Assembly: GCA_902634795.1 (NCBI GenBank)
Contig: CACPLK010000004.1
Location: forward strand, 1-60,004
Origin: an uncultured Prochlorococcus sp.
Lineage (GTDB): Bacteria; Cyanobacteriota; Cyanobacteriia; PCC-6307; Cyanobiaceae
DNA: 60,004 nucleotides
Direction: 5' to 3'
In this document: positions 3,387 through 23,756 of the stretch, one piece after another
How positions within the stretch are numbered: position 1 is the stretch's first letter
Layout: each line of letters opens with the position of its first letter
Notes under the pieces: generated by a model
What the model saw: the letters and a program-made list of their open reading frames with translations, nothing else
What the model was told of the DNA's origin: nothing
The model's database searches: none
Translations under genes and position numbers: made by a program

Positions 3387-3827
3387 TTGTCACACGAATT
3401 AATCTATCTCACAGAGAGAATTAGTGCTCAAGTTATAGAACATAGTCTTCGACTTCCCTTGTCAGCAAAAGAGAGGACTCAACTTCGGGGCATGAGATCA
3501 ACATTAGATGGAATTGATGTTATTTTAAATTTGCCTAGAGGAGGCGGTAGATTAATGCCTGGAGAGGTATTGAAAAGTGATAATTCACAAGTTTTTGTCA
3601 CCATAGAGGCGGCTCAAGAAGATCTAATAAGAATTAGTTCAGAAAATAGATTGAAATTATTAAAAGCTGCATATCATTTAGGTAATAGACATGTTGAGAT
3701 TGAATTGCATGATAAAGAGTTATATTTACTCAATGATTTAGTTATGAAAAAGATGTTAGAAAGACAAGGATTTTTAATAGAAAATTTTAAAAGACCTTTC
3801 GCTCCAGAGACTGGTGCTTATGAGTAG
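3387..3827 (+). CDS. ureE: Urease accessory protein UreE
   Basis: Nickel-carrying metallochaperone for urease assembly, 146 residues. The sequence has the UreE N-terminal beta domain (SAKERTQLRGMRSTLDG, then LPRGGGRLMPGEVL) and the C-terminal binding fold with AAYHLGNRHVEIEL, which contains the conserved metal-site histidine of the family. It lacks the long His-rich tail seen in some UreE proteins. The frame opens with TTG at 3387 and no nearby ATG fits the family length. It begins the ureEFG operon. Confidence 0.92.
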   Translation: MSHELIYLTERISAQVIEHSLRLPLSAKERTQLRGMRSTLDGIDVILNLPRGGGRLMPGEVLKSDNSQVFVTIEAAQEDLIRISSENRLKLLKAAYHLGNRHVEIELHDKELYLLNDLVMKKMLERQGFLIENFKRPFAPETGAYE

Positions 3828-3848
3828 AAAGTTTGATTAACTTCGTTC

Positions 3849-4520
3849 ATGAAACTTGAGTTTTTACAATTAATCAGTCCATCACTACCAGTTGGCGCTT
3901 TCAGTTACTCAGAAGGATTGGAGTGGCTGGTTCAAAATAAAAAAGTATCTGATGAGAAAAGCCTTTTCAATTGGATTGAAAGTGAACTATCTAGAGGCCA
4001 GATAACAATTGAGGCAAGCTCAATTTCTCACATAATGAGAGATTTAATCAATTGGAATGATTATAAAGATGTTGAATATAAGTTAATTATTGATGAGTGG
4101 AATTCTTGGCTTAGTTCACTAAGAGATTCTCCAGATGTTAGATCTCAACAAATACAAATGGGTGAATCTCTATTACAGCTTCTCATTGATCTTGATCATC
4201 CGCTTCCTGGTAATGAAAAGAAATTGATATGGCCGATAGCCTGGGCTTGGGCTGGAGTTAGCTGGGATATATCTGAAATTGATTTAGTGGAAGGATTTTT
4301 ATATAGTTGGGTCGCTAATCAATTGAGTGCAGCGTTAAGACTATTGTCATTAGGACCCACAAAAGCTCAACAGCTTCAAAAAAAATCACTATTGCTTATT
4401 AAGTCTCAAGCAAGTTTCTTATTGAAACAGAATCCTAAAGAAATTTGGGTTAGTGATGTTGGTGCGATCATGGCCCAACAATCGCATGTAGAACTTTATT
4501 CAAGATTATTTAGAAGCTAA
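3849..4520 (+). CDS. ureF: Urease accessory protein UreF
   Basis: All-helical partner of UreD and UreG in urease activation, 223 residues. Family marks are [17 protein letters not shown] near residues 10-26, and a C-terminal section with [14 protein letters not shown]. Its TAA stop shares one base with the ureG start (4518-4522), indicating translational coupling. In other bacteria UreF acts as a fidelity checkpoint for nickel loading. Confidence 0.95.
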
Positions 4521-5119
4521 TGGAAAGTAAATTGAGAGTTGGCATAGCTGGTCCAGTAGGATCTGGTAAAACGGCTATTATTCAGAGACTATGTGAAAAC
4601 CTTAAAGACCACTTTGAGATTGCAGTAGTAACAAATGATATCTACACTCAAGAAGATGCAAAGTTTTTAACTAATTCAAAGGCTTTAGCACCTGAACGTA
4701 TCAAAGGAGTTGAAACTGGAGGATGTCCGCATACAGCTATAAGAGAAGATTGTTCTATTAATAGAATTGCTGTTGAAGAATTAGAACATAAATTTACAGC
4801 TTTAGATTTAGTATTTGTTGAAAGTGGTGGCGATAATCTTTCTGCTAGTTTTAGCCCTGAGTTGGTCGACATATGTATATACATAATCGATGTCGCAGCT
4901 GGAGATAAGATCCCCAGGAAAGGCGGCCCAGGAATCACACGTTCAGATTTATTGGTGATCAATAAGATTGACCTTGCTGAAATGGTTGGAGCAAACTTGA
5001 AAATAATGGAGAGGGATACTCTATTAATGAGAAAAAATCTTCCCTGGTGCTTTACCAATACCAAAACAGGGGAGGGAATAAAAACAATCGAGGATTTTTT
5101 GTGTAATCAGATACTTTAA
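4520..5119 (+). CDS. ureG: Urease accessory GTPase UreG
   Basis: SIMIBI-class GTPase that powers nickel delivery to urease, 199 residues. P-loop GPVGSGKT lies at residues 11-18, followed by the nickel-binding CPH motif in [13 protein letters not shown], the VESGGDNL switch, and NKIDLA as the guanine-specificity motif. It overlaps ureF by one base and ends the ureEFG operon; urtA follows after about 150 bases that contain an NtcA-type site. Confidence 0.97.
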
Positions 5120-5131
5120 TCTCGAAAGAAG

Positions 5132-5145
5132 GTATCTATTCATAC
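5132..5145 (+). promoter_or_regulatory. NtcA-type binding site upstream of urtA
   Basis: GTATCTATTCATAC matches the NtcA consensus GTA-N8-TAC exactly. It lies 126 bases before the urtA ATG. A TAGCTAAAT stretch begins at 5171, 25 bases downstream, near the spacing expected for the -10 element of NtcA-activated promoters. Urea transporter genes are known NtcA targets in cyanobacteria, so activation under nitrogen limitation is likely. Use in this strain is inferred. Confidence 0.75.
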
Positions 5146-5270
5146 AAAAACTTATCTTCGTTTACTGAAATAGCTAAATTAGTCTCATTCGCTACAAAAA
5201 GAGGTGTGTTCAGTTGGATACTTTCCCTAAACCCCAAGGTGGGCTCAAAACTAAATTTAGTTAGTAATTC

Positions 5271-6548
5271 ATGAAGCTTTCAAAGCGCATTTTTGCAGGC
5301 CTAGCTACTGCCTCATTGGCCGTAACTGTTACTGCTTGTGGTGGATCAGATTCCTCAGGTAACTTTGATGACACCGTAACTGTTGGAATTCTCCATTCTC
5401 TATCTGGGACAATGGCAATCTCCGAATCAACTCTTGTTGATACAGAGAAAATGGCTATTGAGGAGATCAATGCAGCTGGTGGTGTAACAGTCGATGGTAA
5501 AAGCTATAAAATCGAGTACATCGTTGAAGATGGTGCTTCAGATTGGCCTACCTTTGCTGAAAAATCTAAAAAGTTAATTGACCAGGATGGAGTACCAGTT
5601 GTCTTTGGTGGCTGGACATCTGCAAGTCGTAAGGCAATGCTTCCGGTCTATGAATCTAAAGATGCATTCCTTTATTACCCCATTCAATATGAGGCACAAG
5701 AGTGCTCGAATAATATTTTCTATACCGGGGCGACTCCTAATCAGCAATCTGAGCCTGCTACAGATTTCATGTACAAACGCTCACCAGCTGCTGGAGGAGA
5801 TTTCTTCTTAGTTGGTTCTGATTATGTTTTCCCAAGAACTTCCAATACAATTACTAAAGCTCAGGTTAAACAACTTGGCGGTAAAGTTGTAGGCGAAGAT
5901 TACCTTCCTTTGGGTAATACAGAAGTAGCTCCTATTATCTCCAAGATTAAAGTTGCTCTTCCTGATGGTGGAATCATCGTTAACACTTTGAACGGTGACC
6001 AAAACGTTGCTTTCTTCAAACAAATCCAGGACGCAGGAATTACTCCTTCCAATGGTTATTACGTAATGAACTACTCCATTGCGGAAGAAGAGATTAGTAC
6101 AATTGGACCTGAGTTCCTTGAGGGCCACTATGGTGCTTGGAACTACATGATGTCTATTGATACTCCAGCCTCTAAGAAATTTGCTAAGAGCTTTAAGAAG
6201 AGATGGGGTAGTGATCGTGTTGTGGCTGATCCTCAAGAATCTGCTTATAACATGGTTTATCTTTGGAAGCAGGCAGTTGAAGATGCAGGAACATTTGATG
6301 ACAATGCGGTTAGAGAAGCATTGGTGGGGCAGACATTTGATGCTCCTCAAGGGCCAGTAGAAGTTATGGCAAATCATCACCTATCTCAAACAGTGAGAAT
6401 CGGTGAAATCAACTCAGAGGGTGGATTTACGATCCTTGAAGAAACAGGAGTAGTTGAACCACAAGCATGGAACCAAAAACATCCAAGTTCAAAAGGTTTC
6501 GCTTGTGATTGGACTGATCCTAAGAAAGGTGAAAAATATAGGATGTGA
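5271..6548 (+). CDS. urtA: Urea ABC transporter, substrate-binding protein
   Basis: Periplasmic urea-binding component, 425 residues. It has a lipoprotein-like signal sequence (positive MKLSKR, hydrophobic stretch, VTACGG with the cysteine near residue 23), followed by a type I periplasmic-binding fold with VTVGILHSLSGTMAISE and AAGGVTVDGKSY. It is in the branched-chain amino-acid/urea family, and placement next to urease and before UrtBCDE makes urea the clear substrate. A strong hairpin follows the gene, as often seen when binding protein is made in excess over the permease. Confidence 0.96.
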   Translation: MKLSKRIFAGLATASLAVTVTACGGSDSSGNFDDTVTVGILHSLSGTMAISESTLVDTEKMAIEEINAAGGVTVDGKSYKIEYIVEDGASDWPTFAEKSKKLIDQDGVPVVFGGWTSASRKAMLPVYESKDAFLYYPIQYEAQECSNNIFYTGATPNQQSEPATDFMYKRSPAAGGDFFLVGSDYVFPRTSNTITKAQVKQLGGKVVGEDYLPLGNTEVAPIISKIKVALPDGGIIVNTLNGDQNVAFFKQIQDAGITPSNGYYVMNYSIAEEEISTIGPEFLEGHYGAWNYMMSIDTPASKKFAKSFKKRWGSDRVVADPQESAYNMVYLWKQAVEDAGTFDDNAVREALVGQTFDAPQGPVEVMANHHLSQTVRIGEINSEGGFTILEETGVVEPQAWNQKHPSSKGFACDWTDPKKGEKYRM

Positions 6549-6576
6549 TTATATTTTTGACTTATAAATAGATTCT

Positions 6577-6602
6577 AATAAGGAGCCTTTAGGCTCCTTA
6601 TT
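6577..6602 (+). terminator. Hairpin between urtA and urtB
   Basis: Perfect 11-bp inverted repeat (arms 6577-6587 and 6592-6602, loop TTTA), GC-rich near the loop and followed by TCTTT. It looks like an intrinsic terminator or 3' stabilising stem of the urtA message, letting a fraction of transcripts continue into urtBCDE. Partial read-through is inference. Confidence 0.7.
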
Positions 6603-6625
6603 TCTTTAAAAAAACAACCAAGCTA

Positions 6626-7783
6626 GTGCAACTTTTTCTTGAAAGCCTCTTTAATGGCGTTGCTATTGGCTCAGTTTTGCTTGTCGCAGCACTGGGACTA
6701 GCAATTGTCTTCGGTTTAATGGGTGTCATCAATCTTGCTCATGGGGAATTGATGATGCTTGGTGCTTATTCAACATACATAACCCAATTAATTTTCAAAC
6801 AAGTTTCTTTTTTAAAACCTTTTTATGATTCATATGTCATAGTTGCAATTGGGATTGCTTTTTTAGTTAGCGGAACAGTTGGGATTCTTTTAGAACGAAC
6901 GGTTATTAGACGTCTCTATGGAAGTCCTCTTGAAACACTTCTAGCTACATGGGGAGTGAGCCTAATCCTACAACAATTTGTTAGAAGCGTTCCGCTGGCC
7001 TATGCAAGTGGTTTGGTGATAGCACTTTTCTTTGGATTATTTTCACCATTATTTATTTCGGATGACTTACTTCATGGTGCAAAAGGTAAATTAATAAGAG
7101 CATCTACTTGGGGATTCTCAGCGTTATTGGGTGTCGCAACAGGAGGTATTTTATCTTCTTTAGTAAGTAAACTTAGTCGTGCTAGTGCAAGGAATGTTGA
7201 CGTTACAGCTCCTTCTTGGATGAGAGGTGGAATTGATTTTGTTGGAATTACTTTTCCTAAAACTCGTCTTTTAATAATCCTTATTACCTTGATATCTGTT
7301 TTAATAGTCATTTTCTTTCTTGATAAAACAGCTTGGGGAATAAGAATTAGAGCAGTAACTCAAAATAGACCTATGAGTGATTGTTTAGGTATATCAACAG
7401 AAACAGTAGATATTATTACTTTTGGAATTGGATCTGGTTTGGCTGGTGTCGCAGGAGTTGCGGTTTCACTTCTTGGCTCTGTGGGACCAAATGTTGGTGG
7501 AAATTACATAGTGGGATGTTTTATGGTTGTCGTTCTTGGTGGAGTGGGCAATTTGTTAGGCACAATCCTTGCTTCTTTCTCGATTGGAATAATGACCGAT
7601 TTGATAGGAGCAGGACGACTCCTGACCATTTGGCCAGAGATGCCATCTCCTCTTTATTCAACAATAGATTTTTTTGCGACAACAAGCATGGCTAGAGTAA
7701 TGATATTTGCTCTAATAGTTATATTCCTTCAATTCAGACCAACTGGGATGTTCCCCCAAAAAGGAAGAATGGTGGAGTCCTGA
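6626..7783 (+). CDS. urtB: Urea ABC transporter permease UrtB
   Basis: Inner-membrane permease of the LivH type, 385 residues with many hydrophobic helices. The N-terminus (LFNGVAIGSVLLVAALGLAI, then GLMGVINLAHGELMMLGAYS) is diagnostic for the family. The extra central segment (about residues 140-205) is consistent with UrtB being longer than amino-acid LivH. It starts with GTG at 6626, directly after the urtA hairpin, and ends 3 bases before urtC. Confidence 0.95.
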   Translation: MQLFLESLFNGVAIGSVLLVAALGLAIVFGLMGVINLAHGELMMLGAYSTYITQLIFKQVSFLKPFYDSYVIVAIGIAFLVSGTVGILLERTVIRRLYGSPLETLLATWGVSLILQQFVRSVPLAYASGLVIALFFGLFSPLFISDDLLHGAKGKLIRASTWGFSALLGVATGGILSSLVSKLSRASARNVDVTAPSWMRGGIDFVGITFPKTRLLIILITLISVLIVIFFLDKTAWGIRIRAVTQNRPMSDCLGISTETVDIITFGIGSGLAGVAGVAVSLLGSVGPNVGGNYIVGCFMVVVLGGVGNLLGTILASFSIGIMTDLIGAGRLLTIWPEMPSPLYSTIDFFATTSMARVMIFALIVIFLQFRPTGMFPQKGRMVES

Positions 7784-7786
7784 TTT

Positions 7787-8914
7787 ATGAGTATTTTTTC
7801 TACAAAAAAAAGTTGGATTAACCTAACTATTTGGGTGTTAATCATTGCTTTAATTATTGCTGCACCATCAGTACTTCCTGTTTTTAGATTAAATCTCTTA
7901 GGAAGATATTTGTCTCTTGCAATAGTAGCTCTTGGGGTTGATTTGATTTGGGGATTCACAGGGATGTTGAGTTTAGGTCAAGGAATTTTCTTTGCTCTTG
8001 GTGGATATTGCGCTGCAATGTTCCTCCAATTGAATAGTGCAGGAGAATTCCCAAATGGTATTCCCGAGTTTTTTGGTTTGTATGGAGTTGAAAAACTTCC
8101 TTTCTTCTGGGAACCATTTAAAAGTTCAATTTTTACTCTTATTTCCATTTGGTTGTTACCGGCAATAATTGCTGGTCTTCTTGGGTATCTAGTTTTTAGA
8201 AATAGAATTAAAGGTGTTTATTTTTCAATTCTTACACAAGCAGCTCTTTTAGTTTTCTTCAATTTCTTTAATGGTCAACAGAAATTGATTAATGGAACAA
8301 ATGGTCTAAAAACAGACGTGACTCAACTTTTTGGACAAATGGTAGGTTCAGAAATAATGCAAAGATGGTTTTTTTGGATAACAGCGATTTTAGTAATATT
8401 TGCATGGTTTTTTGCGCGGTGGATTGTTCGAGATAGATTTGGAAATATTCTTATAGGAATTAGAGACGATGAAGCTCGAGTACGTTTTACTGGATATAAT
8501 CCAGTAATTTTTAAAACAATAATTTTTTCAATAGCAGGAGGATTAGCTGGTGTTTCAGGGGCTTTGTATACAGTTCAATCTGGAATAGTGTCTCCTCAAT
8601 TTATGACCGTTCCTTTCTCTATAGAAATGGTTATTTGGGTTGCCGTGGGAGGTAGAGGAACTTTATTAGGGGCAATTCTTGGAGCTGTTTTAATTAATTA
8701 TGCAAAAAGTTTGGTGAGTGAAGCATTACCAGCAAGCTGGATGTTTATTCAAGGTGGATTATTTATTCTTGTTGTAACAGCTCTTCCAGAAGGGGTACTA
8801 GGATGGATAAGAACAGGTGGTCCAAAGAAATTACTTTTTTTAATAGGGATTAATAAAAAACTAGAGACATATCCAAGTCTTGAAGTTAATGAACAAGGTG
8901 AGGTGAAATCATGA
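7787..8914 (+). CDS. urtC: Urea ABC transporter permease UrtC
   Basis: Second permease subunit, LivM type, 375 residues. Visible family features are DLIWGFTGMLSLGQGIFFALGGY near residues 52-74 and the cytoplasmic coupling segment LIGIRDDEARVRFTGYNP near residues 222-239. It pairs with UrtB to form the membrane channel. The stop overlaps the urtD start in an ATGA junction at 8911. Confidence 0.95.
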   Translation: MSIFSTKKSWINLTIWVLIIALIIAAPSVLPVFRLNLLGRYLSLAIVALGVDLIWGFTGMLSLGQGIFFALGGYCAAMFLQLNSAGEFPNGIPEFFGLYGVEKLPFFWEPFKSSIFTLISIWLLPAIIAGLLGYLVFRNRIKGVYFSILTQAALLVFFNFFNGQQKLINGTNGLKTDVTQLFGQMVGSEIMQRWFFWITAILVIFAWFFARWIVRDRFGNILIGIRDDEARVRFTGYNPVIFKTIIFSIAGGLAGVSGALYTVQSGIVSPQFMTVPFSIEMVIWVAVGGRGTLLGAILGAVLINYAKSLVSEALPASWMFIQGGLFILVVTALPEGVLGWIRTGGPKKLLFLIGINKKLETYPSLEVNEQGEVKS

Positions 8915-9666
8915 ATTCTCCATTGCTAGAGCTAAAGCAAATTTCAGTTAGTTTTGAAGGATTTCTTGCCCTCAGAGATCTTGATCTGGCTTTGAATCAA
9001 GGCGAGCTTAGAGCAGTTATTGGACCCAATGGTGCAGGTAAAACTACATTTTTAGATGTAATTACTGGAAAAGTAGCACCTACAAAGGGGGATGTGATTT
9101 TTAAAGAAAAATCGTTGCTTGGTCAAAAAGAGTTTCGTATAGCAAGGAAAGGGATTGGAAGAAAATTTCAAAGTCCTAGGATATTTGAGAATTTATCTGT
9201 ACAAGAAAATTTAGCACTATCAGTTAGTAGACCTAAAACTCCTTTTTCATTATTAATTAATAGTTTAAAGGTTAAGCATTTAGATCAAATTCAACATTTG
9301 ATGAGTATTGTCAACCTTCAATCAAAAGCCAATATCCGGGCTGGATCGCTTTCTCATGGTCAAAAACAATGGCTTGAGATAGCGATGCTGGTTGGACAAG
9401 ACCCTGATCTTTTACTTGTTGATGAACCTGTAGCTGGTTTGACTGATGAAGAAACAGATTTAACTGCTGATCTTCTTAAATCTTTAGCTGGCGATCATAC
9501 TGTATTAGTCATTGATCATGATATGGAATTTATTCGTAGACTTGATTGTCCTGTTAGTGTTTTGCATCAAGGGCATGTATTGAAAGAGGGATCAATGAGC
9601 GACATACAAAAAGATCCTTTAGTGATAGAGGTTTATCTAGGAAAATCTGAGGAGGAAGAAGAATGA
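8911..9666 (+). CDS. urtD: Urea ABC transporter ATPase UrtD
   Basis: One of two ATPase subunits, LivG type, 251 residues. Walker A is GPNGAGKTT around residues 38-46. The signature motif reads LSHGQKQWLE rather than LSGGQ, a variation usual for UrtD. Walker B is LLLVDEPVAGL, and the switch histidine lies in VIDHDMEFI. It overlaps urtC and urtE by four bases each, so the three are translationally coupled. Confidence 0.95.
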   Translation: MNSPLLELKQISVSFEGFLALRDLDLALNQGELRAVIGPNGAGKTTFLDVITGKVAPTKGDVIFKEKSLLGQKEFRIARKGIGRKFQSPRIFENLSVQENLALSVSRPKTPFSLLINSLKVKHLDQIQHLMSIVNLQSKANIRAGSLSHGQKQWLEIAMLVGQDPDLLLVDEPVAGLTDEETDLTADLLKSLAGDHTVLVIDHDMEFIRRLDCPVSVLHQGHVLKEGSMSDIQKDPLVIEVYLGKSEEEEE

Positions 9667-10370
9667 CTATGCTTCAGATAAAAGGCTTGAATACCTACTA
9701 TGGAGAGAGTCATATTCTTCGGGATGTTGATATGAATATCAATCAAGGTGAGATGATTTGTCTTATTGGTCGTAATGGAGTAGGTAAAACAACTTTGCTT
9801 AAATCTTTAATAGGGTTATTAACTCCACGGCGTGGAGAGATTATTTTTAATGGAGATTTGGTAAATAGAAAGCCACCTCATCAAAGGGCTCGTTCCGGAA
9901 TTGCATATGTTCCTCAAGGACGTGAGATAATCCCTTATCTAACCGTAGAGGAAAATCTTCAACTTGGATTGGAAGCTTTGCCTGGAGGGCTAGCGAAGCA
10001 TAAAAAGATTGATGAACTTGTATATGAACTTTTTCCTGTTTTAAAACAATTTCTAGTTCGTAAAGGAGGTGACTTAAGCGGAGGGCAACAGCAACAACTT
10101 GCAATTGCGCGAGCATTACTTGGAAAACCAAAGTTACTTTTACTTGATGAACCAACCGAAGGAATACAACCGAATATCGTTCAAGATATTGAGTCAGCAG
10201 TTAAAAGGATCATTAGTGAGACTGGTGTTGGAGTTTTATTGGTAGAGCAACATTTGCATTTCGTGAGGCAAGCAGATCGTTATTATGCAATGCAACGCGG
10301 TGGAATAGTAGCTAATGGCCCAACGAGTGAATTAAGTAAATCTGTCGTTGAGAAATTTCTTAGTGTTTAA
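9663..10370 (+). CDS. urtE: Urea ABC transporter ATPase UrtE
   Basis: Second ATPase subunit, LivF type, 235 residues. Walker A GRNGVGKTT, signature LSGGQQQQLAIARAL, Walker B LLLLDEPTEGIQPN and switch VEQHLHF are all intact. It is the last gene of urtABCDE. Its 3' end overlaps by four bases a small convergent frame encoding a zinc-ribbon miniprotein. Confidence 0.95.
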   Translation: MTMLQIKGLNTYYGESHILRDVDMNINQGEMICLIGRNGVGKTTLLKSLIGLLTPRRGEIIFNGDLVNRKPPHQRARSGIAYVPQGREIIPYLTVEENLQLGLEALPGGLAKHKKIDELVYELFPVLKQFLVRKGGDLSGGQQQQLAIARALLGKPKLLLLDEPTEGIQPNIVQDIESAVKRIISETGVGVLLVEQHLHFVRQADRYYAMQRGGIVANGPTSELSKSVVEKFLSV

Positions 10371-14239: not shown

Positions 14240-15313
14240 TTATTCGAATTCTTGAAGTGACGTTTTCGTCCGAACCTTAAAATTCCAAACCGTAATTCCT
14301 CCGTTTGCATTTATTGCAGCCAAGGCAGTGTCATCAGGGTGCCAAGCGATTTGGCTTACAAGGTCACCTGAAAATGCACCACCAACTGGATCACCCTGAC
14401 CATTTGCTTGGAGGAACCAAGAAAAAACTGAACCATCTCTCGCGCCAGAAGCTAAAAGCATCCCGCTATGTGAGAAAGCAAGGCATGAAATGGGTTCGGT
14501 ATGAAGCATTAACTCTCCAGGTACAGTGCCCTCAGGACCATCGTCTTGAAAACTCCAAACCGTTACTCGATCACTACCCCCAGTAGCAAGAACTGTGCCA
14601 GTTTGATCAAAAGCTAGGTGGCTTGGTTTGCCTGGATATCCTGTCATCTCTGAATCTTCATCTGTTGAACGACGCCAGAAATGAACAGAATTATCCTGAC
14701 TGCCGCATGCCACTATGTCTCCATCTGGACTAAGCACCATTGATACCAGTGAGCCTCGCCACTCCAACTTTTGATTGATCTTGTCGTTTACTACATCAAA
14801 AAAAGTGACTTGGCCATAGCATGCTGTTGCTAATTCATTTGAATTAGACCAAGCAATCGCGCTAACAGTGCTGGGATGCTCCTCTGATCGCCAATGTTCT
14901 TGACCTTTATCATCAAAAACATAGACGTATTTAGTAAAAACTACTGCTAAAAATTTTCCGTCTGGGGACCACTTGATGTGCTCAACCCATCCTTTCCCAA
15001 GTTCCAAAGCATTAGTTGCCGTACCCTCTTGGCTTTCCCATATATTCACATGTCCATCTTGGCCAGCAGTTGCAAAAGTCTTTCCATTTGGATGTATAGA
15101 CATTGCGAGTAAGCCACCTTTATGTATGTCTTTTATTTGCCAAATGAGCTTTCCAGATTTTCCCTCAAATGCGTAAAGCCCACCAGCGACATCACCTACT
15201 AAAAAAGTTTTCCCTTCTAGTGCCCAGCCGCAGACAATCGCATAGTCGTCAACTTGCGTAGACCAACCTTCATGAAGCATTCCCTTGGGACTAAATGCTT
15301 CTATACCAGACAT
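14240..15313 (-). CDS. WD40-repeat beta-propeller, linked to the COG0523 gene
   Basis: 357 residues, all beta-propeller. Repeated blades carry the usual signals: MSIHPNGKTFATAGQDGHVNI, IKWSPDGKFLAVVF, VLSPDGDIVACGSQDNSVHFW, LAFDQTGTVLATGGSDRVTVW, LAFSHSGMLLASGARDGSVFS and IAWHPDDTALAAI, consistent with about seven blades. There is no signal peptide, so it is probably cytoplasmic. Its start overlaps the end of the COG0523 GTPase gene by 13 bases, implying coupled synthesis and perhaps a complex. WD40 proteins are typically protein-interaction platforms. A role in zinc allocation is inferred from context only. Confidence 0.85.
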   Translation of the reverse strand: MSGIEAFSPKGMLHEGWSTQVDDYAIVCGWALEGKTFLVGDVAGGLYAFEGKSGKLIWQIKDIHKGGLLAMSIHPNGKTFATAGQDGHVNIWESQEGTATNALELGKGWVEHIKWSPDGKFLAVVFTKYVYVFDDKGQEHWRSEEHPSTVSAIAWSNSNELATACYGQVTFFDVVNDKINQKLEWRGSLVSMVLSPDGDIVACGSQDNSVHFWRRSTDEDSEMTGYPGKPSHLAFDQTGTVLATGGSDRVTVWSFQDDGPEGTVPGELMLHTEPISCLAFSHSGMLLASGARDGSVFSWFLQANGQGDPVGGAFSGDLVSQIAWHPDDTALAAINANGGITVWNFKVRTKTSLQEFE

Positions 15314-16683
15314 TTGTCAAACTCCCTGCTCATTTCTGCTGCATCAAGATTTCTACCGATAAAGACGAGTTGGTTACGGCGAGGTTCATTGCCCCATTCT
15401 TTATCAGGTTGTGCTGTGAAGAGCATGTGTACTCCTTGAAAAACTATTCGCTTAGATTCACCCGCATAACTAATGAAACCTTTGGTGCGAAATATATCCA
15501 CACCTTTCTCAGACAAAAGTCGACTTAGCCATCTATTGAGTTTCTCCGGATCTACATCACCCTCTCGCTCGATAGCGATTGAACCTACTTCGTCATCGTG
15601 TTCGTGTTCAGCTACCCAAACCCTCTCAGCTATTGGAGAAATTGTAGAGATGTTCTGATTATTATCTATCTCGTCTGTAGAAGGAGTATTTACTTTCGTT
15701 AATTTCATATTAAATTCTTCGGCTGTATGTTGAGTGAATAGACCTATATCCCTTGCCTTATCAACATCTATGAAGAAGGACTTAGTCCCTTCGGATTGCA
15801 GTTGAAGGCTCACATGTTTGCCGACTGGAACCATATCCCCTGGATTCATAAGTTGTTCTTGTTCGGCATATAGTCTTACGCATGATTCAGCCCCTGAGTT
15901 GAGTGATGTCTCATCCTTGCCTTGGTTTAATAACAGTACGAGAGACATTGTGGGGTCTGGACCTTCTTCGAGCGTAAGTTCATAGCGACCTTTTTCAAGT
16001 GAAAAAACACCTGTCCACTCAAATGGGTATTCTGGTTCAAGAAAAGTTGGACGACGCTGAAGTACTTGATCTAGATCAAAAGCACTTAGATTTAGCACAG
16101 TATCAATTGAGACGTCTGCTTGTTTACTGCGTATGACACGAGCCATACGATTCATATCGCGTAGCCGTGATTCTAAGTTGTCGAGTGATTCATCTGAAAC
16201 TAGATCGGTTTTATTTAGGACAAGGACGTCAGCAAAGGCAACTTGCTCCGAACTCTCATCACTTCGACCAAGTTGTTGATCTATATGGGCTGCATCAACA
16301 AGTGTGACTATTCCATCAAGTGAAAACTCCTCACGGATTTCATCGTCCATAAAGAATGTCTGAGCGACAGGACCAGGATCAGCGAGGCCAGTAGTTTCAA
16401 CTAATACATAGTCAAATTTGTCTCGCCTCTTCATGAGGTTTCCTAGTACACGAATTAAATCTCCACGTACGGTGCAGCAGATGCAACCATTGGACATCTC
16501 GAAGACCTCTTCGTCAGCATTGATTACTAATCCTTGATCAATACCAACTTCACCATATTCATTTTCAATAACAGCTATTTTTTTACCATGTTCTTCGCTC
16601 AGGATTCGATTAAGTAGAGTAGTTTTGCCAGATCCTAGGAAACCAGTCAATATGGTAACCGGTACTTTTTCCTTAATGCTCAT
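15301..16683 (-). CDS. COG0523 (CobW-type) metallochaperone GTPase with inserted domain
   Basis: 460 residues, longer than the usual 320-400. The G3E GTPase domain has Walker A GFLGSGKT (14-21), the metal motif GCICC (66-70), ETTGLADP and NKTD (157-160). The C-terminal CobW domain is about residues 375-455. Between them, residues about 221-328, is an extra beta-rich domain beginning FEWTGVFSLEKGRYEL, which closely resembles a segment inserted in the neighbouring ZnuA. A short acidic/His stretch (AEHEHDDE) follows. Placement in a zinc operon suggests a zinc chaperone induced under starvation, as known for other COG0523 members. Confidence 0.92.
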   Translation of the reverse strand: MSIKEKVPVTILTGFLGSGKTTLLNRILSEEHGKKIAVIENEYGEVGIDQGLVINADEEVFEMSNGCICCTVRGDLIRVLGNLMKRRDKFDYVLVETTGLADPGPVAQTFFMDDEIREEFSLDGIVTLVDAAHIDQQLGRSDESSEQVAFADVLVLNKTDLVSDESLDNLESRLRDMNRMARVIRSKQADVSIDTVLNLSAFDLDQVLQRRPTFLEPEYPFEWTGVFSLEKGRYELTLEEGPDPTMSLVLLLNQGKDETSLNSGAESCVRLYAEQEQLMNPGDMVPVGKHVSLQLQSEGTKSFFIDVDKARDIGLFTQHTAEEFNMKLTKVNTPSTDEIDNNQNISTISPIAERVWVAEHEHDDEVGSIAIEREGDVDPEKLNRWLSRLLSEKGVDIFRTKGFISYAGESKRIVFQGVHMLFTAQPDKEWGNEPRRNQLVFIGRNLDAAEMSREFDKCLV

Positions 16684-16692
16684 TTCCTTTAG

Positions 16693-17010
16693 CTAATAAT
16701 GTGAACAATGAGAGTTGTCAAGAGAAATATCAGTTAGCCAATTCTCTTGTATTCCCAATAAATCTAGCGACTTTGATTCAAAATCATCTAGCTCGAAATA
16801 ATTGTAAGGAACTTTTAATCTTACTGTACTTTTTCCATTTTCTCTCTTAAGCGAATGATTTGAAAATTGAAGTTCTTTTAAATTGTCATCGAAGTCAGTT
16901 GAGATAGTAAGTTTTAAGATTTTATCTCTATCCCATGGGGCTTTATCCATAAAACTTGCCTGATCTTCCCAGTGTTGTCTGTAGGCGTTAAACCCTTTAG
17001 TTGGAAACAT
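16693..17010 (-). CDS. Unknown protein in the zinc operon, 105 aa
   Basis: 105 residues, soluble, rich in aromatic and acidic residues: MFPTKGFNAYRQHWEDQAS at the start, a central beta-like section (STVRLKVPYNYFELDDF) and a C-terminal HCSHY. No family recognised. It sits 9 bases before the COG0523 gene and 57 bases after znuA, all leftward, so it belongs to the same transcript. The terminal Cys/His pair might bind metal but this is speculative. A 16-bp hairpin ends 8 bases before its start codon. Confidence 0.7.
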   Translation of the reverse strand: MFPTKGFNAYRQHWEDQASFMDKAPWDRDKILKLTISTDFDDNLKELQFSNHSLKRENGKSTVRLKVPYNYFELDDFESKSLDLLGIQENWLTDISLDNSHCSHY

Positions 17011-17018
17011 TTTTGTTG

Positions 17019-17055
17019 CAAACCTGTCTGCATTTTATCAATGTAGACAGGTTTG
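17019..17055 (-). promoter_or_regulatory. Long hairpin between znuA and the 105-aa gene
   Basis: A 16-bp stem with a single G-T wobble (arms 17019-17034 and 17040-17055) and a 5-base loop. In the leftward message it starts 12 bases after the znuA stop and ends just before the next start codon. It is not followed by a T-run, so it more likely limits translation of the next gene, protects the znuA message or marks a processing site. The role is inferred. Confidence 0.6.
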
Positions 17056-17067
17056 TATTTGTAAAAG

Positions 17068-18597
17068 TTAAGGGTTACTTAAATCATTCCATTTACTCTC
17101 AAGTTCATCACCCTCTTTCTCGTCACATTCTCCACCAAGCGAATCAACAATTGTACATGTGTTGTGTACTGCTACTGAAACAGTATTCCCTTCTAGCATT
17201 AGACCATCAACAAAGATCTGATTTCTTGCAATAGGGGTGGAAGTTTGTCTGCTAAGGTTTTTCAATAGCTTGGAAGGAGGCTTTTGCTCAGCGAATAATA
17301 CTTTCACGTTTTCTTCTTTCAGCTCGGCTATTACCGTTGAAATAGTCTCTGGTCGAAGGCTGGAAGAATCACCAACGTAATCTAATAAACTCAAAGTCTT
17401 CAAGCCAAATGCATCTCCGTAATATTCCATCGCTTTGTGCTTAGAAACGATTGTCCTTCGATCAGTAGGAATTGTGGCAACTTGTTTTTGAGTCCATAAA
17501 TCGAGATCTTCCAAAATAGAATTAACGGCTTGAGTCCTCTCTTTTAAAACTTTTTTTGTTTCTCTGTCAAAGAAGGAAATTTTCTTATTGATATTTTTAG
17601 AAATGACATTTCCCATCTTGATGATGTTATGAGGGTCATGCCAGATATGAGGATCTAGCCCACCATGGTCATGGTGATGATGGTGATCGCCTTCATCTGG
17701 GACTTGAGCAATCGGTTCAACATCGTCGCCTGAAATATCCTTAAAGAAATGTTCGTCGGCTTCAAATTCAAAAGGCATATGCTCAGTAAAGAATGCATAT
17801 TTACCAGCTTTTTTGATTTCTACAGTAAATGTTGTGATGTCTTTCTTCTCATTAAATGAGAGAAAATATGCTTTTTCCTGCGCAACAAGTTTGTCATTAT
17901 TGCGTTTAGTTTCTGAATCCTGAGACCCTAATAATTCTTTAGCAAGCTCTTCTGATGCTTCAATATCACCAGAGTTGAGAATAACCATTTTCATTGCAGG
18001 ATCAGCATAGTCTCCATCGACTTTGGCAAAAGACCATTTGTATGTTCCTGCTGAAAGATCAAAAACACCAGCCCATTCAAAAGCTCCCTCTCCATGGGCA
18101 TCGCCATGATCATCGTGGTCGTCATGATCGTCATGCTTAGCAGCTGAATGATCGTCATGATCATCGTGGTCATCATCCTTAGCAGCTGAATGATCATCGT
18201 GATCGTCATGATGATCGTCTATTTCTATTGCACTTACGCCTACAACAACAGTTAAAGGATTATCTAACCATTTTTTCATTGCAGGGGTCATCTCTGAACC
18301 AAGAGTAAATACTTGGTTTGCACTTTTTAGTGTTTGAGCTTGCCTTGGAGTGATTTTGACATCATGAACATCTTGTTTTCTATCAATTAAGCAGGTTACA
18401 GGTGTTGAAGGTGGTGCAATAGCAGAAACGACATCGCAGACTAATGGCTCTACGGCAACAATTGGTTTTGAATTTGCCTGTGCACTCTGATTAATTCCAG
18501 AAAACAAAAATGCTCCAGCAACAAGAGAACTTTTTAGAGCTGTTTTATTGATTATGGATTTAGCCTTTTTGGACTGATTAGAAAAATTCGACATCAA
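17068..18597 (-). CDS. znuA: Zinc ABC transporter binding protein (ZnuA) with large insert
   Basis: Periplasmic zinc-binding component, 509 residues against about 300-340 for typical ZnuA. A signal peptide ends near AQA-NS (about residue 42). The N-lobe has QDVHDVKITPRQ with a metal-ligand histidine (78); the C-lobe has DPHIWHDPHN (315-324), SKHKAMEYY (His 387) and LFAEQ. Between the lobes are an Asp/His-rich low-complexity stretch (127-170), a beta domain (about 172-280) resembling one in the neighbouring COG0523 protein, and a second His-rich tract (304-311). The first His-rich stretch contains repeated DHSAAK units. It is the first gene of the leftward zinc operon. Confidence 0.92.
   Translation of the reverse strand: MMSNFSNQSKKAKSIINKTALKSSLVAGAFLFSGINQSAQANSKPIVAVEPLVCDVVSAIAPPSTPVTCLIDRKQDVHDVKITPRQAQTLKSANQVFTLGSEMTPAMKKWLDNPLTVVVGVSAIEIDDHHDDHDDHSAAKDDDHDDHDDHSAAKHDDHDDHDDHGDAHGEGAFEWAGVFDLSAGTYKWSFAKVDGDYADPAMKMVILNSGDIEASEELAKELLGSQDSETKRNNDKLVAQEKAYFLSFNEKKDITTFTVEIKKAGKYAFFTEHMPFEFEADEHFFKDISGDDVEPIAQVPDEGDHHHHHDHGGLDPHIWHDPHNIIKMGNVISKNINKKISFFDRETKKVLKERTQAVNSILEDLDLWTQKQVATIPTDRRTIVSKHKAMEYYGDAFGLKTLSLLDYVGDSSSLRPETISTVIAELKEENVKVLFAEQKPPSKLLKNLSRQTSTPIARNQIFVDGLMLEGNTVSVAVHNTCTIVDSLGGECDEKEGDELESKWNDLSNP
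18105..18230. repeat. In-gene repeat encoding the His/Asp tract of ZnuA
   Basis: Imperfect tandem copies of GATCATCGTGGTC-like units with two copies of TTAGCAGCTGAATGATC (around 18137 and 18179). They translate to repeated DHDDHSAAK. Slippage could change the number of metal-binding histidines between strains. Confidence 0.7.
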
Positions 18598-18618: not shown

Positions 18619-18634
18619 CGATAATCATTTTCAT
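18619..18634. promoter_or_regulatory. Putative Zur site in the znuA / znuC spacer
   Basis: CGATAATCATTTTCAT contains GATAAT-C-ATTTTC, a near-perfect palindrome with one mismatch, resembling Zur boxes of cyanobacteria and other bacteria. It lies 22 bases from the znuA start and about 50 from znuC in the only divergent spacer, so it could repress both units. A zur gene lies within the cluster. Binding has not been tested. Confidence 0.65.
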
Positions 18635-18683
18635 TTGGTCTTGGCAAGTATATTATGTTGCTTGTCAGCAAATCCTCTAATTG

Positions 18684-19379
18684 ATGTCTAGTCTGATTGC
18701 TGAAAATGTGACATATTCCTATTCGAGTAATATCAAACCTGCTTTAAGCAAGGTTTCTCTAAAGCTTGAGCAAGGTACTTTGACTGCTCTTGTTGGTCCG
18801 AATGGCGCTGGTAAGTCTACATTATTAAGCTTGCTGCAAGGTAGTAGCAAGCCGGATCAAGGAGAAATTACTGTTGACGGAAAGCCTTTGATTAATAATC
18901 GATCTCAAGTGGCTTTAATGCCTCAGAGGGGAAAGCTGAATTGGAATTTTCCAATTACTGTTGAAGGATTAGTTGCTTTAGGTCGAGTAAATCATTCTAA
19001 ATCGACTTGTTGTGAATTAGAAGCAGCTCTTCAACGTGTTGGAATATCTCATTTAGCAAAAAGGAGACTTGATGCTTTGTCTGGTGGACAGCAACAAAGA
19101 GCATTACTTGCAAAAACATTAATGAATCCAGCCAAAATTTTTCTTCTTGATGAACCTTGCTCCGCCTTTGATCCTCCCGCTAAAGAAGATTTCCTTTTAA
19201 TCATCCGTCAGCTGGCCGATTCGGGATTCACGGTTTTTGTTAGTAGTCATGACTGGGGAACATCTTTGAATGCCTATGACAAGGTTGTTGCTTTAGACAA
19301 AATTATTTTGGCTTCAGGCAGTCCTCAGGAAGTTCAGGAAAAACTTAGTTCAATTAATTATTTAAGGTGGAAGTTATAG
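18684..19379 (+). CDS. znuC: Zinc ABC transporter ATPase (ZnuC)
   Basis: ATPase of the zinc importer, about 231 residues. Walker A is GPNGAGKST, the signature LSGGQQQRALLAKTL, Walker B FLLDEPCSAFDP and the switch SSHDW. The ATG at 18684 (MSSLIAENVTYSY) is preferred over the adjacent TTG at 18681. It is divergent from znuA and separated from znuB by the oppositely oriented zur gene, an unusual split of the transporter into three transcripts. Confidence 0.93.
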   Translation: MSSLIAENVTYSYSSNIKPALSKVSLKLEQGTLTALVGPNGAGKSTLLSLLQGSSKPDQGEITVDGKPLINNRSQVALMPQRGKLNWNFPITVEGLVALGRVNHSKSTCCELEAALQRVGISHLAKRRLDALSGGQQQRALLAKTLMNPAKIFLLDEPCSAFDPPAKEDFLLIIRQLADSGFTVFVSSHDWGTSLNAYDKVVALDKIILASGSPQEVQEKLSSINYLRWKL

Positions 19380-19402: not shown

Positions 19403-19807
19403 TTATCCAGCATTAAGTTGCTGAGAACAATTTTGGCAGAGACCAAAGTACTCAAGAGTATGAAACAAAAGCTCAAATTTTTTAGAAGTGTTTTTCGATA
19501 GATCCATCATTTTGACCGGACATCCCTTCAAGCGTGTTGTTTCTCCACAGCTTACGCAAGTTAAATGATGAATATCTCTTTCAACTGGCGCATAAAGAAC
19601 CTCACCATTGGGAAGATGTCTGGAACGAATCAAACCTTGCTTTACGAGTGCTTGTAGGTTTCGATAGACCGTGGTCAGTCCCATTGCCTTTTCACCATTG
19701 TGAAGTTGTCTGTGCAGTTCTTGCCCACTCAATTCATCAGTACATTTCTTGAGTTCATTGAGCAGTTGTTGCTGACGTCTAGTGATTTCAGGCTTGCTTG
19801 TACTCAT
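19403..19807 (-). CDS. zur: Fur-family regulator, probable zinc sensor Zur
   Basis: About 134 residues from the ATG at 19807 (MSTSKPEITRRQQQLL); an open extension to 19843 exists but would invade the spacer. The winged-helix domain carries GLTTVYRNLQALVKQGLI, the family DNA-recognition helix. The dimerisation part has HHLTCVSCG and LCQNC, two CxxC pairs that hold structural zinc. It nests between znuC and znuB, and this location favours Zur over Fur or PerR. It probably represses zinc uptake when zinc is ample. Confidence 0.88.
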   Translation of the reverse strand: MSTSKPEITRRQQQLLNELKKCTDELSGQELHRQLHNGEKAMGLTTVYRNLQALVKQGLIRSRHLPNGEVLYAPVERDIHHLTCVSCGETTRLKGCPVKMMDLSKNTSKKFELLFHTLEYFGLCQNCSQQLNAG

Positions 19808-19860
19808 AAGCAAGATCTTAATTTGATCTCTAATACTGACCATACTGAATCATTGGCTTA
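19808..19860. promoter_or_regulatory. Short divergent zur / znuB spacer
   Basis: Fifty-three bases if zur starts at 19807. It contains AGATC-N7-GATCT, a small inverted repeat, and TGAATCATT, a partial match to the putative Zur core upstream of znuA. Both promoters must lie here or overlap the zur 5' end. Confidence 0.35.
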
Positions 19861-20646
19861 ATGTCTTTTTTAAATACAAATTGGTGGATAATTCCTCTTT
19901 TGATAACTTCCTTTTCTGGAATACTTTGCCCTGCGATGGGAACTGTATTGATCACTCATAAAAGGCTTCTTCAAGTTAATTTAATTTCGCATTGTGTGTT
20001 GCCAGGTCTTGCTTTGGCTATGGCGCTTGGTTTGGATCCTTCTATTGGTGGAGTCATCAGCGGTTTGGTAGGAGCTATTGCAGCAGAAAGCTTGACAAAT
20101 AAAAAAAATCAAAATTATGAAGCGGTTATGAATACAATTCTTTCTGGTTCGATAGGACTCGGTGTTTTGCTTATACCTCTACTGGGCATCAGGATTGATT
20201 TGGAGGCTGTTTTATTTGGAGATTTATTAACTGCAAATCTGAGTGATCTGCTAAGAACTTTGATCGCTTTCTCGGTATTTATTTGCTTGATGCTTTTTGG
20301 TTACGACAAGCTTGTTCATATTGGTCTTGATCCAGAAGGAGCTGCTTCAAGTGGAGTTAATGTATCTTTTTTAAATTTGGCTCTTGGTTTTACTACTGCA
20401 CTTGTCATTGTGAGTTCAATGTCTGCAGTGGGAGTGGTTCTTGTGATTGCATTACTTTCAACCCCAACTTTGTTGGGATTACAGAAAGCAAGATCTTTAT
20501 GGATTGCGATGGTTAGATCCTCCATATTTGGATTAATTTTATCGCTTATAGGTTTTTCTCTTGCTATGGTTTTGAATTTGCCTCCTGGACCTTTGATTAG
20601 TGTGGTTTGTGTGATTTCATTAATTTTGCTACCAAACAATAGATAG
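19861..20646 (+). CDS. znuB: Zinc ABC transporter permease (ZnuB)
   Basis: Membrane subunit of the ABC-3 family, 261 residues with about eight hydrophobic helices. Family features are SGILCPAMGTVLITHKRLL and ISHCVLPGLALAMALG, and the conserved central and C-terminal SAVGVVLVIALLSTPT. The GLDPEGAASSGVN loop is the usual cytoplasmic coupling region. It starts 53 bases from zur in the opposite direction. Confidence 0.93.
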   Translation: MSFLNTNWWIIPLLITSFSGILCPAMGTVLITHKRLLQVNLISHCVLPGLALAMALGLDPSIGGVISGLVGAIAAESLTNKKNQNYEAVMNTILSGSIGLGVLLIPLLGIRIDLEAVLFGDLLTANLSDLLRTLIAFSVFICLMLFGYDKLVHIGLDPEGAASSGVNVSFLNLALGFTTALVIVSSMSAVGVVLVIALLSTPTLLGLQKARSLWIAMVRSSIFGLILSLIGFSLAMVLNLPPGPLISVVCVISLILLPNNR

Positions 20647-21562: not shown

Positions 21563-22006
21563 TTAGTGAGGGTTGATATGGACTGCACAAGGCATCCATA
21601 ATTTACCCATCTTATGGACACCATTGCATCCGAGCTTTTTGGCTTCGATCTCTGCCTGAGCTTTGGTTGGATATGCATATATATTTTTTGAAGATGAAGA
21701 ATTAGAACGATTGATTGACTCCTGAATAGCATTGTTTTCTGGACTCCATACCTTTAGACCCATGGTTGTTATGCCAGCAGAGAAGATTCCCATACCTACA
21801 ATTGAAGCATTGATAACCCCCATAGCCACTACACCAATAGAGACAACACCCATTGGGACGATTCCAATGGTGACAATCCCCATAGGAACAATACCAATCG
21901 AGATATAACCAAGTGGTGCTATTCCAATCGCAATTTTTTTGGGTTTACTTCCACAATGAGAAGGACTTTCTGATGCTTCCTGCTTAGAAGTATTTGAAGT
22001 TGTCAT
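21563..22006 (-). CDS. Decapeptide-repeat protein with C-terminal DUF3721
   Basis: 147 residues. Residues 25-83 are six tandem 10-residue repeats of the type IGIVPMGVVS, a pattern that suggests a small membrane-associated or beta-solenoid structure. Residues about 109-143 form a DUF3721 domain (YPTKAQAEIEAKKLGCNGVH, then KMGKLWMPC). The short acidic N-terminus has no signal peptide. It follows the DUF3721 lipoprotein gene by 12 bases in the same direction. Function is unknown; the shared domain and the zinc neighbourhood suggest metal handling. Confidence 0.75.
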   Translation of the reverse strand: MTTSNTSKQEASESPSHCGSKPKKIAIGIAPLGYISIGIVPMGIVTIGIVPMGVVSIGVVAMGVINASIVGMGIFSAGITTMGLKVWSPENNAIQESINRSNSSSSKNIYAYPTKAQAEIEAKKLGCNGVHKMGKLWMPCAVHINPH

Positions 22007-22565: not shown

Positions 22566-23756
22566 TTGAATCTTCTCCGTAAAGTCCTTCTCTTCCCTGT
22601 TGCTGTTGGTCTTCTTGCTCCATTAGTTGCCAATGCTGGTGGCGATGATCATAAAGGGCATCATGATCACCATAGTGGTCATATGAATATGGGAGACTCA
22701 TATCCATCAACAATGTTTATGGGAAAAACGACTTTTGTTTTGGGTGGAGTGGATGGAGTTAGCGATTCTGGAATGGGTGGAATGGGTGGAATGGGTGGAA
22801 TGTCTACTTCTGAGGAAAAGGATGGGAGCGTTTTTCATTACGATACAAAGTTAATGTTTATGACCAGTTTTAATGGTCAAGACATGCTTAAAACTGCTGT
22901 TCGCGCAGGTAACTTTGGCATGATGGAACCCTTCGGAATGATGGGTGAGGCAAGATTAGATACTGCTTTTAGTAGTAGTGATTCGTTAGAACTTCATAAG
23001 GCTTATTATCAGTTCCCTGTTGGAGATGATATTCAAGTAACTTTTGGCCCCAAACTCCGCCAAGATGATTTGCTTGGAGTGTGGCCCAGTGCTTATCCAG
23101 GAGATGGAGTTTTGTTTATTTTGAATCAGGCAGGTGCGAACGATACTTATTCCAAGAAGATGGGGGCAGGCGCAGGAATTACTTGGTCTCACGAGAAATT
23201 AGTTGCTTCTGCACTGTTTGTTTCAGAAGACGCATCAAATTCTTCGATTGGCTTTTTAACTGATGAAGGCAAAGACCATATAACAACTCAGTTGGCGTGG
23301 GTTGATGAGAAATATACTCTTGCAGCGGCCTATACACAAGCGGATAACGGTAATACTGATGATTCTCCTGATGCGAATGATTACTCTTCTTATGGAATTA
23401 GTGGTAGTTATCAATTCGGAGACGACTACAGCTTGAGTGCTGGTATTGGTTGGAAGAATCCTGAGAACGAGGATAGCCCTGATACTGCAATGAATAAGGT
23501 TGAGGATGGAAATACATGGTCTGTTGGCTTCCTATGGAATGATGCGTTTATTGAAGGAAATAAATTTGGATTTGGTATTGGAACAGCTGAAACTCATAGA
23601 GATGATGCTGGCTATGATGATCCTTTGGCTTGGGAAGCTTTTTATGATTTCACAGTTAACGATAGCGTCACAGTTACCCCAGCTATCTTTGTTATCGAGA
23701 AAGATGGTAAAGAGGATGTTAATGGAGCTTTGGTGAAAACTACTTTTAAGTTCTAG
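22566..23756 (+). CDS. Outer-membrane porin with His-rich N-terminus
   Basis: 396 residues, TTG start at 22566 (the only possible one after an in-frame stop). A signal peptide ends near ANA (residue 24). The mature N-terminus GGDDHKGHHDHHSGHMNMG has five or more histidines, then a Met/Gly repeat (GMGGMGGMGGM). The rest shows alternating beta-strands and ends in Phe (VKTTFKF), as in cyanobacterial OprB/SomA-type porins, though it lacks an obvious N-terminal SLH domain. Location next to zinc genes suggests a zinc-capturing porin; this is inference. Confidence 0.75.
   Translation: MNLLRKVLLFPVAVGLLAPLVANAGGDDHKGHHDHHSGHMNMGDSYPSTMFMGKTTFVLGGVDGVSDSGMGGMGGMGGMSTSEEKDGSVFHYDTKLMFMTSFNGQDMLKTAVRAGNFGMMEPFGMMGEARLDTAFSSSDSLELHKAYYQFPVGDDIQVTFGPKLRQDDLLGVWPSAYPGDGVLFILNQAGANDTYSKKMGAGAGITWSHEKLVASALFVSEDASNSSIGFLTDEGKDHITTQLAWVDEKYTLAAAYTQADNGNTDDSPDANDYSSYGISGSYQFGDDYSLSAGIGWKNPENEDSPDTAMNKVEDGNTWSVGFLWNDAFIEGNKFGFGIGTAETHRDDAGYDDPLAWEAFYDFTVNDSVTVTPAIFVIEKDGKEDVNGALVKTTFKF
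22770..22802 (+). repeat. 9-base tandem repeat in the porin gene
   Basis: Three exact copies of GGAATGGGT plus a partial fourth, translating to repeated GMG. Methionine-rich tracts often bind copper or silver in other proteins. Repeat number may vary between strains. Confidence 0.8.

Follow-up and report, generated by a model that had tools for sequence, protein, structure and literature searches.

A shared, uncatalogued domain inserted in a ZnuA-type protein and a COG0523 GTPase of an uncultured Prochlorococcus

This study concerns two genes in a 60,004-nucleotide stretch of contig CACPLK010000004.1 (assembly GCA_902634795.1) from an uncultured Prochlorococcus sp., referred to below as the window. 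A ZnuA-type zinc substrate-binding protein and a nearby COG0523/G3E GTPase each carry an inserted segment, and the two inserts are homologous: they are members of one uncatalogued domain family of approximately 110 to 130 residues. The best joint explanation, on which we remain evenly divided, is that these inserts represent a family of metal-relay domains in metal-trafficking proteins and that the ZnuA form has moved as a cassette. If this is true, a mobile domain shared by proteins on either side of the membrane would supply a concrete, testable component of zinc capture and hand-over, and also a clear example of phyla exchanging less than a whole gene. The domain, itself unannotated, can further be used to look for metal-trafficking genes in bacterial and archaeal genomes.

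One uncatalogued domain in two zinc-related proteins

The features central to the argument are listed here by window position.

15301-16683, minus strand: COG0523/G3E GTPase, 460 amino acids, with cobW and CobW_C matches (Pfam) and a GCICC motif in the sequence
15694-16023, minus strand: inserted domain of the GTPase, residues about 221-330, between the GTPase and CobW_C domains
15715-16020, minus strand: span containing E222, D243, H319 and E323, the four polar residues of the GTPase that are invariant
17068-18597, minus strand: ZnuA-type zinc substrate-binding protein, 509 amino acids, from its translation and a Pfam ZnuA match in two stretches (5.4e-45)
17659-17688, minus strand: His-rich tract past the ZnuA insert, DHHHHHDHGG, residues 304-313
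17689-18081, minus strand: inserted domain of ZnuA, residues about 173-303, FEWAGVF...AQVPDEG, from sequence comparisons
17767-18078, minus strand: span containing E174, D199, H273 and E277, the four polar residues of ZnuA that are invariant
18085-18222, minus strand: His/Asp-rich tract preceding the ZnuA insert, residues 126-171, from the translation
18106-18216: 42-base tandem repeat within that His/Asp-rich tract

The GTPase belongs to the G3E family by virtue of a cobW match at residues 8-184 (208 bits), a CobW_C match at residues 367-459 (90.4 bits) and the GCICC motif. The ZnuA-type protein passes the Pfam cut-off for PF01297 (154.3 bits against 29) with a match split in two stretches; zinc binding and transport are its putative function. 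Because Pfam divides the ZnuA match and leaves a gap between cobW and CobW_C, both hosts are interrupted, at the places where a first-pass annotation of the window had noticed an extra domain in two otherwise unrelated zinc proteins.

Comparison of the inserts by BLASTP gave 31% identity at an E value of 8e-10 (8e-8 for the whole proteins), while separate profiles built from 26 ZnuA and 39 GTPase copies matched one another with a profile-profile probability of 97 and an E value of 8.5e-11 over 105 columns. The similarity and common order of the two segments, previously seen by eye, are borne out by these comparisons. A search of the ZnuA insert against its own genome (69 contigs, 61% complete), allowing E values up to 10, found two places only, namely the insert itself and that of the GTPase (E 2e-6). 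The first-pass annotation had held that a failed profile comparison or differing predicted folds would undo the proposal; the profile comparison is significant and the predicted folds, as described next, agree in nearly all their elements.

AlphaFold models were obtained for each insert from its own alignment, with a mean predicted local distance difference test score (pLDDT) of 83.5 and a predicted template modelling score (pTM) of 0.77 for ZnuA, and 84.9 and 0.78 for the GTPase. The ZnuA model comprises strands 8-15, 18-25 and 35-41, helix 46-58, and strands 62-65, 70-72, 77-81, 88-95, 99-105 and 119-121; the GTPase model comprises strands 12-18, 21-27 and 34-41, helix 47-61, strands 66-68, 79-83, 90-96 and 100-106, helix 108-113 and strand 116-120. 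The order of elements is nearly identical, differing only by strand 70-72 in ZnuA and helix 108-113 in the GTPase, and the models suggest a beta-sandwich. Foldseek returned best E values of 0.088 and 0.026, with no match at 0.001 or better for either model, and VIA-align gave a best Z score of 4.4 for ZnuA and 6.1 for the GTPase, all rows falling under Z 8. The neighbours drawn by both models, all weak, are SEC14-like proteins (Z 4.3 and 6.1), p24 GOLD (3.3 and 5.3) and the CBM35 structure 2w1w (3.7 and 5.3), each below a trustworthy Z, as well as the N-terminal domain of GPR180; the part of the SEC14-like proteins that is matched is presumably their GOLD part. We claim no named fold.

Searches of domain libraries support the earlier suggestion that the domain is undescribed. 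Nineteen diverse copies (alignment A2) gave a best Pfam E value of 0.014, with each family matched by one member only. For the two window proteins, no Pfam family has its best stretch inside an insert (the second ZnuA stretch starts at residue 292), and the same holds for NCBIfam, apart from an overlap by the ZnuA part from residue 290 on. The best NCBIfam result for the A2 members was a 'hypothetical protein' model at E 0.00033, matched by two of the 19, and there was none for the window ZnuA insert. Among PDB sequences nothing significant was found (best E 0.42 with the A2 profile and 0.6 with a single sequence), and by sequence search no ZinT family appeared among the Pfam matches of the window proteins or the A2 members. 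The open-licence literature searched, including the available portions of PMC2770081, PMC4771312, PMC9337993, PMC10957091 and PMC8155600, does not describe the inserted domain.

Invariant residues, hosts and a putative metal relay

A search across genome contigs yielded 366 confirmed relatives, the best 80 of which, found by patterns containing D, H and E, were examined. The 332 matches over all loci reduce to 221 distinct copies once identical repeats and rows having at least 25 gaps are excluded. In model numbering, Glu6, Gly16, Asp27, His104 and Glu108 are kept in all 221, and Trp7, Gly9, Pro28 and Phe109 in 220. The more diverse alignment A2, in which two of the 19 rows come from the best 80 pattern-found loci, retains the same Glu, Gly, Asp, His and Glu in every row. 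In the model of the GTPase insert, four positions separate H319 from E323 within a short predicted helix, a spacing common in metal sites. Furthermore, a His-rich stretch contains or adjoins the domain in the ZnuA, haloarchaeal ZnuA, free-standing and Alicyclobacillus hosts. The invariant Glu, Asp, His and Glu, together with these His-rich surroundings, are indirectly suggestive of metal binding.

The closest copies among the best 80 relatives, at 95-99% identity, lie on Prochlorococcus contigs. Within a sample of 151 genomes of the same family, the ZnuA form occurs in 30 and the GTPase form in 38, and all 30 carry both. The two copies lie within 4.1 kilobases (kb) of each other in 27 of the 28 genomes having both on one contig, the exception (G065) separating them by 874 kb. 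Two genomes (G112 and G120) pair an insert-bearing GTPase with a neighbouring ZnuA-like frame, of 303 and 328 amino acids respectively, that has no insert. The phylum sample produced 23 matches in 292 genomes; four are outside the family, all four in the GTPase form and two of them in frames cut by a contig end. Further afield, matches were obtained in 2 of 398 Pseudomonadota genomes (one being the seed), in 8 of 147 genomes of the SAR11-seeded order (seed included), in 1 of 150 from the order of a Rhizobiaceae metagenome-assembled genome (MAG), which is the seed itself, and in both genomes of the order of a gammaproteobacterial MAG, each already among the best 80 of the 366 relatives. Phage records queried with the ZnuA insert contained no copy, and 49 pattern stretches on viral contigs included no relative by tblastn.

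Plasmid records broaden the range of hosts, and copies in haloarchaeal ZnuA-type proteins, in haloarchaeal lipoprotein-like proteins and in an Alicyclobacillus membrane protein are new here. The haloarchaeal ZnuA-type hosts number four (L175, L176, L182 and L186), with a fifth (L177) broken into two frames; two COG0523-type GTPases upstream of the znu locus in L177 carry no copy. Three small haloarchaeal hosts (L178, L179 and L181) have a lipobox-like start, as judged by eye. GTPase hosts with an adjoining WD40 gene occur in Pantoea (L184) and Paraburkholderia (L183), and a second Pantoea GTPase (L185) looks broken, with a match lacking an annotated gene followed by a 97-residue GTPase piece. 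In Alicyclobacillus (L180), a membrane-type host protein is found beside cation transporters and a metal-sensitive regulator. Assignment of this protein to NicO was considered and rejected: the whole protein had no Pfam match at E 0.01, and its halves gave only sub-threshold matches to Mntp and DsbD_2.

Several observations on these loci are recorded separately. A free-standing copy in L181 (4872-5423) immediately follows a haloarchaeal urease cluster, hinting at nickel as another ligand. Genes for NicO-type transporters lie near GTPase copies in the non-picocyanobacterial loci L199, L200 and L185, and a ZIP gene is also present in L199.

Copies elsewhere do stand with zinc, nickel or urease genes, a point that the first-pass annotation had suggested checking. 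The notion of a domain shared within a zinc operon stands in so far as the domain is shared and homologous, but it is not limited to that operon or to cyanobacteria, given the haloarchaeal, Alicyclobacillus and proteobacterial copies. Hosts and neighbours tied to metals comprise ZnuA, COG0523 proteins, haloarchaeal znu loci, a urease cluster, NicO and ZIP genes and metal-responsive regulators. The copies have neither a compartment nor an obvious partner in common, and what links the hosts is a metal; a metal relay is the most economical reading. The types of host support the earlier placement of the domain on either side of the membrane, and the ligand common to both sides would be the metal ion. 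The invariant Glu, Asp, His and Glu would together bind a divalent metal, Zn(II) being the likeliest; this site may take metal from the floppy His-rich tract and pass it to the host's own site, be it the ZnuA cleft or the CxCC site of the GTPase. Such a relay would raise capture and hand-over at scarce zinc.

A number of points weigh against the relay. Picocyanobacteria supply the majority of the 221 copies, and the complete invariance is partly selected because the 80 loci were found through patterns holding D, H and E. The invariant residues could instead be structural, and three carboxylates with one His are not the commonest zinc set. Residues 111-115 of the ZnuA model, just past the His, have a pLDDT below 50 and form no helix. 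The GTPase form has no long His-rich tract, only AEHEHDD after the domain, and the Alicyclobacillus host can be called NicO-like only by its HxxxxDH motif, its Pfam matches being below cut-off. Finally, few copies turned up beyond the picocyanobacteria in the genomes sampled (2 of the 398 Pseudomonadota).

An unlikely but serious contender is a docking module, whose ligand would be another protein (in the case of ZnuA a surface or permease partner, in that of the GTPase the WD40 protein or a client) and whose invariant residues would maintain the fold or the contact surface. The GTPase-WD40 gene pair, which recurs in other lineages, travels together, and the predicted beta-sandwich is weakly like the GOLD and carbohydrate-binding folds, often binding folds, at a Z of at most 6.1. 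A single shared partner is nevertheless hard to name when the hosts differ in compartment, in belonging to bacteria or archaea and in neighbours, and G414, G415, G416 and G417 hold one match each, in a ZnuA-type host with no GTPase copy found, these being MAGs or single-amplified genomes (SAGs) that are perhaps incomplete.

We consider it quite improbable that the domain is a spacer or lid, a rigid body in the His-rich loop of ZnuA that controls access to the cleft without binding metal. Its position inside a His-rich stretch would suit such a role, and a regulatory function for the His-rich loop of Synechocystis ZnuA is the title subject of a reference cited in the available text of PMC8786288 and PMC10957091. 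The GTPase, free-standing and Alicyclobacillus copies are left unexplained by a lid, as is the retention of the His and the Glu by every one of the 221 copies.

The ZnuA form as an apparent mobile cassette

The metal-relay reading is coupled to a second one, that the ZnuA domain travels independently of its host. Four proteobacterial ZnuAs, from a Halothiobacillaceae MAG, the gammaproteobacterial MAG, the Rhizobiaceae MAG and a Pelagibacteraceae SAG, share 74-76% identity with the window in the domain, against 23-29% in their N-terminal and 20-27% in their C-terminal parts. Six more ZnuA frames of the SAR11 order, those with a full-length match, show 65-67% in the domain and 24-30% in the backbone, and a seventh, cut short, shows 60% in the domain and 26% in the N-terminal part. 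The yardstick for divergence without recent transfer is provided by four haloarchaeal ZnuAs, at 36-38% in the domain and 22-26% in the backbone. Within the cyanobacterial family (20 loci), identities fall together, ranging over 67-99% for the domain, 54-98% for the N-terminal part and 63-99% for the C-terminal part. In the alignment, the high identity of the ZnuA domain runs from FEW to approximately PDEG, and His-rich sequence flanks both edges. From the excess of domain identity (65-76%) over backbone identity (20-30%, as pairwise values) and from the position of the edges at His-rich tracts, the domain has apparently moved as a cassette between unrelated ZnuA backbones. The 42-base tandem repeat in the His-rich tract of the window is no more than suggestive of recombination as the route of transfer; the cassette may have passed from one backbone to another by recombining within the repetitive His/Asp tracts on either side of it.

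In a tree of the domain, marine ZnuA forms make up one group (support 100/99), apart from the GTPase, haloarchaeal and other copies; several GTPase rows are long, and their inner order is unsure. A recent duplication inside the operon was rejected: the GTPase and marine ZnuA copies fall on opposite sides of the 100/99 branch, so that the operon pair joins two old branches of the family and is not a fresh copy. A cyanobacterial ZnuA copy on a cyanobacterial backbone (L117) joins a gammaproteobacterial copy with support of 96/82, which hints at a second transfer. Neither a single cyanobacterial clade nor a single SAR11 clade is rejected by the approximately unbiased test (p-AU 0.144 and 0.388, respectively). 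Our claim is of transfer, and not of the number or direction of transfers.

A more detailed picture can be offered tentatively, and we lean somewhat away from it as a whole. The domain would be a free-moving hand-over fold, holding zinc through an invariant Glu-Asp-His-Glu set, and would have entered carriers of the periplasm, GTPases of the cytoplasm, transporters of the membrane and lipoproteins of the surface. In the ocean, Prochlorococcus, SAR11 and Gammaproteobacteria would have exchanged its ZnuA form by way of His-rich repeats, as a cassette that tunes zinc capture while each keeps its own carrier.

Extreme constraint, rather than transfer, might account for the identity of the domain across phyla, and in most within-family pairs with the window the domain is indeed somewhat more conserved than the backbone. 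We regard constraint as very unlikely, because haloarchaeal ZnuAs at equal backbone distance retain only the domain identity given above, and because within the family domain and backbone drop together (to 67% against 54-68%). Contamination of single-cell genomes or MAGs seems more improbable still. The contigs concerned (L106, L116, L119 and L145) are of SAG or MAG origin; each ZnuA match in them spans an entire frame whose backbone differs from the cyanobacterial type and which is accompanied by znuB- and znuC-like genes of its own (by eye) and, in L106, L116 and L119, by fur-type genes (by eye), and the domain is held by several genomes of the SAR11-seeded order. Chance similarity of unrelated segments, to which the low identity of the window pair might point, is scarcely credible beside the BLASTP and profile E values, the own-genome match, the agreeing models and the invariant residues.

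Some frames contain more than one copy, which also speaks for a cassette. In the 80 loci and the window, 100 ZnuA-form matches are spread over 81 frames, and 19 of these frames carry the domain twice, the form being assigned by a simple motif rule. A case noted separately (L065; G078:C1, about 1357365-1358717) is an 873-residue ZnuA frame with two identical domain copies 969 bases apart, which could reflect tandem duplication of part of the gene or an assembly error. A 46-residue remnant of the GTPase form, with 59% identity and two internal stops, is found at G050:C2:120861-120998, and an intact copy is present elsewhere in that genome.

Gene neighbourhood and related zinc systems

The remaining genes of the locus are as follows.

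14240-15313, minus strand: WD40 protein, whose gene overlaps that of the COG0523 protein at the latter's 3' end
16693-17010, minus strand: small open reading frame (ORF), 105 amino acids, between znuA and the COG0523 gene
18681-19379, plus strand: znuC-like gene (by eye)
19403-19843, minus strand: fur-type regulator gene (by eye)
19861-20646, plus strand: znuB-like gene (by eye)

The run znuA, small ORF, COG0523 gene and WD40 gene, with gaps of 57, 9 and -13 bases, is likely to be one operon, judging from its layout. The N-terminus of ZnuA resembles a signal peptide ending in AQA (by eye). The 105-residue ORF had no Pfam or NCBIfam match at E values up to 1 and gave 94 tblastn matches across the compared loci, many of which overlap one another and represent the same region; it has the look of a genuine gene, conserved at the znuA-COG0523 locus. 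A scan of the window with a Zur-box palindrome found 12 sites against 9.0 expected, a number reached in 17 of 100 shuffles. As the sites are not enriched over shuffles, we make no regulatory claim. A palindrome-like site near that pattern lies at 18619-18633, between the divergent znuA and znuC.

AdcA-type proteins combine a ZnuA-like substrate-binding protein with a C-terminal ZinT domain that has a presumed role in zinc capture. The window ZnuA is similar in that a second, separate domain has been added to a zinc-binding carrier, and differs in that this domain lies inside a His-rich stretch and has no ZinT family match; the NCBIfam AdcA model weakly matches the ZnuA part, far below its cut-off. 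The insert occupies the same host position as the ZnuA His-rich loop, with the same type of flanking sequence, the loop here holding an additional folded domain of about 130 residues.

Prokaryotic members of COG0523 subfamily 5 cluster with WD40, znuABC and creatinase genes, several are predicted behind Zur sites, and COG0523 genes putatively under Zur control are listed for a number of organisms, Prochlorococcus marinus included (Haas et al. 2009, PMC2770081). The window shares this grouping of COG0523, WD40 and znu genes, a likeness in gene neighbours, and the available portion of that article does not mention the inserted domain. ZepA, a secreted zinc protein of Anabaena with the motif H-X2-9-H-F/Y-H (PMC10957091), resembles the window domain in its link to zinc and its proximity to COG0523, ZnuA and fur-type genes; the window domain has one invariant His, in HxxxEF, and is set apart by motif from ZepA as portrayed in the text available. 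The accessible part of a study of SAR11, which reports znuA in 50% of the genomes studied, contains no mention of the inserted domain (PMC4771312), and the abstract of PMC9337993 describes as unknown how open-ocean strains manage to thrive when zinc is ultra-low.

Other genes of the window are of note for their composition or position. Urease accessory genes and a urea-type ATP-binding cassette transporter set (by eye) are present upstream at 2361-10370. Close to the zinc genes, a porin-like protein (by eye; 22566-23756, plus strand) has a His-rich N-terminal part (DDHKGHHDHHSGHMN) and is possibly a metal-linked outer-membrane protein. A 147-residue protein (21563-22006, minus strand) consists mostly of repeats like IGIVPMGVVSIGVV, an unusual low-complexity composition.

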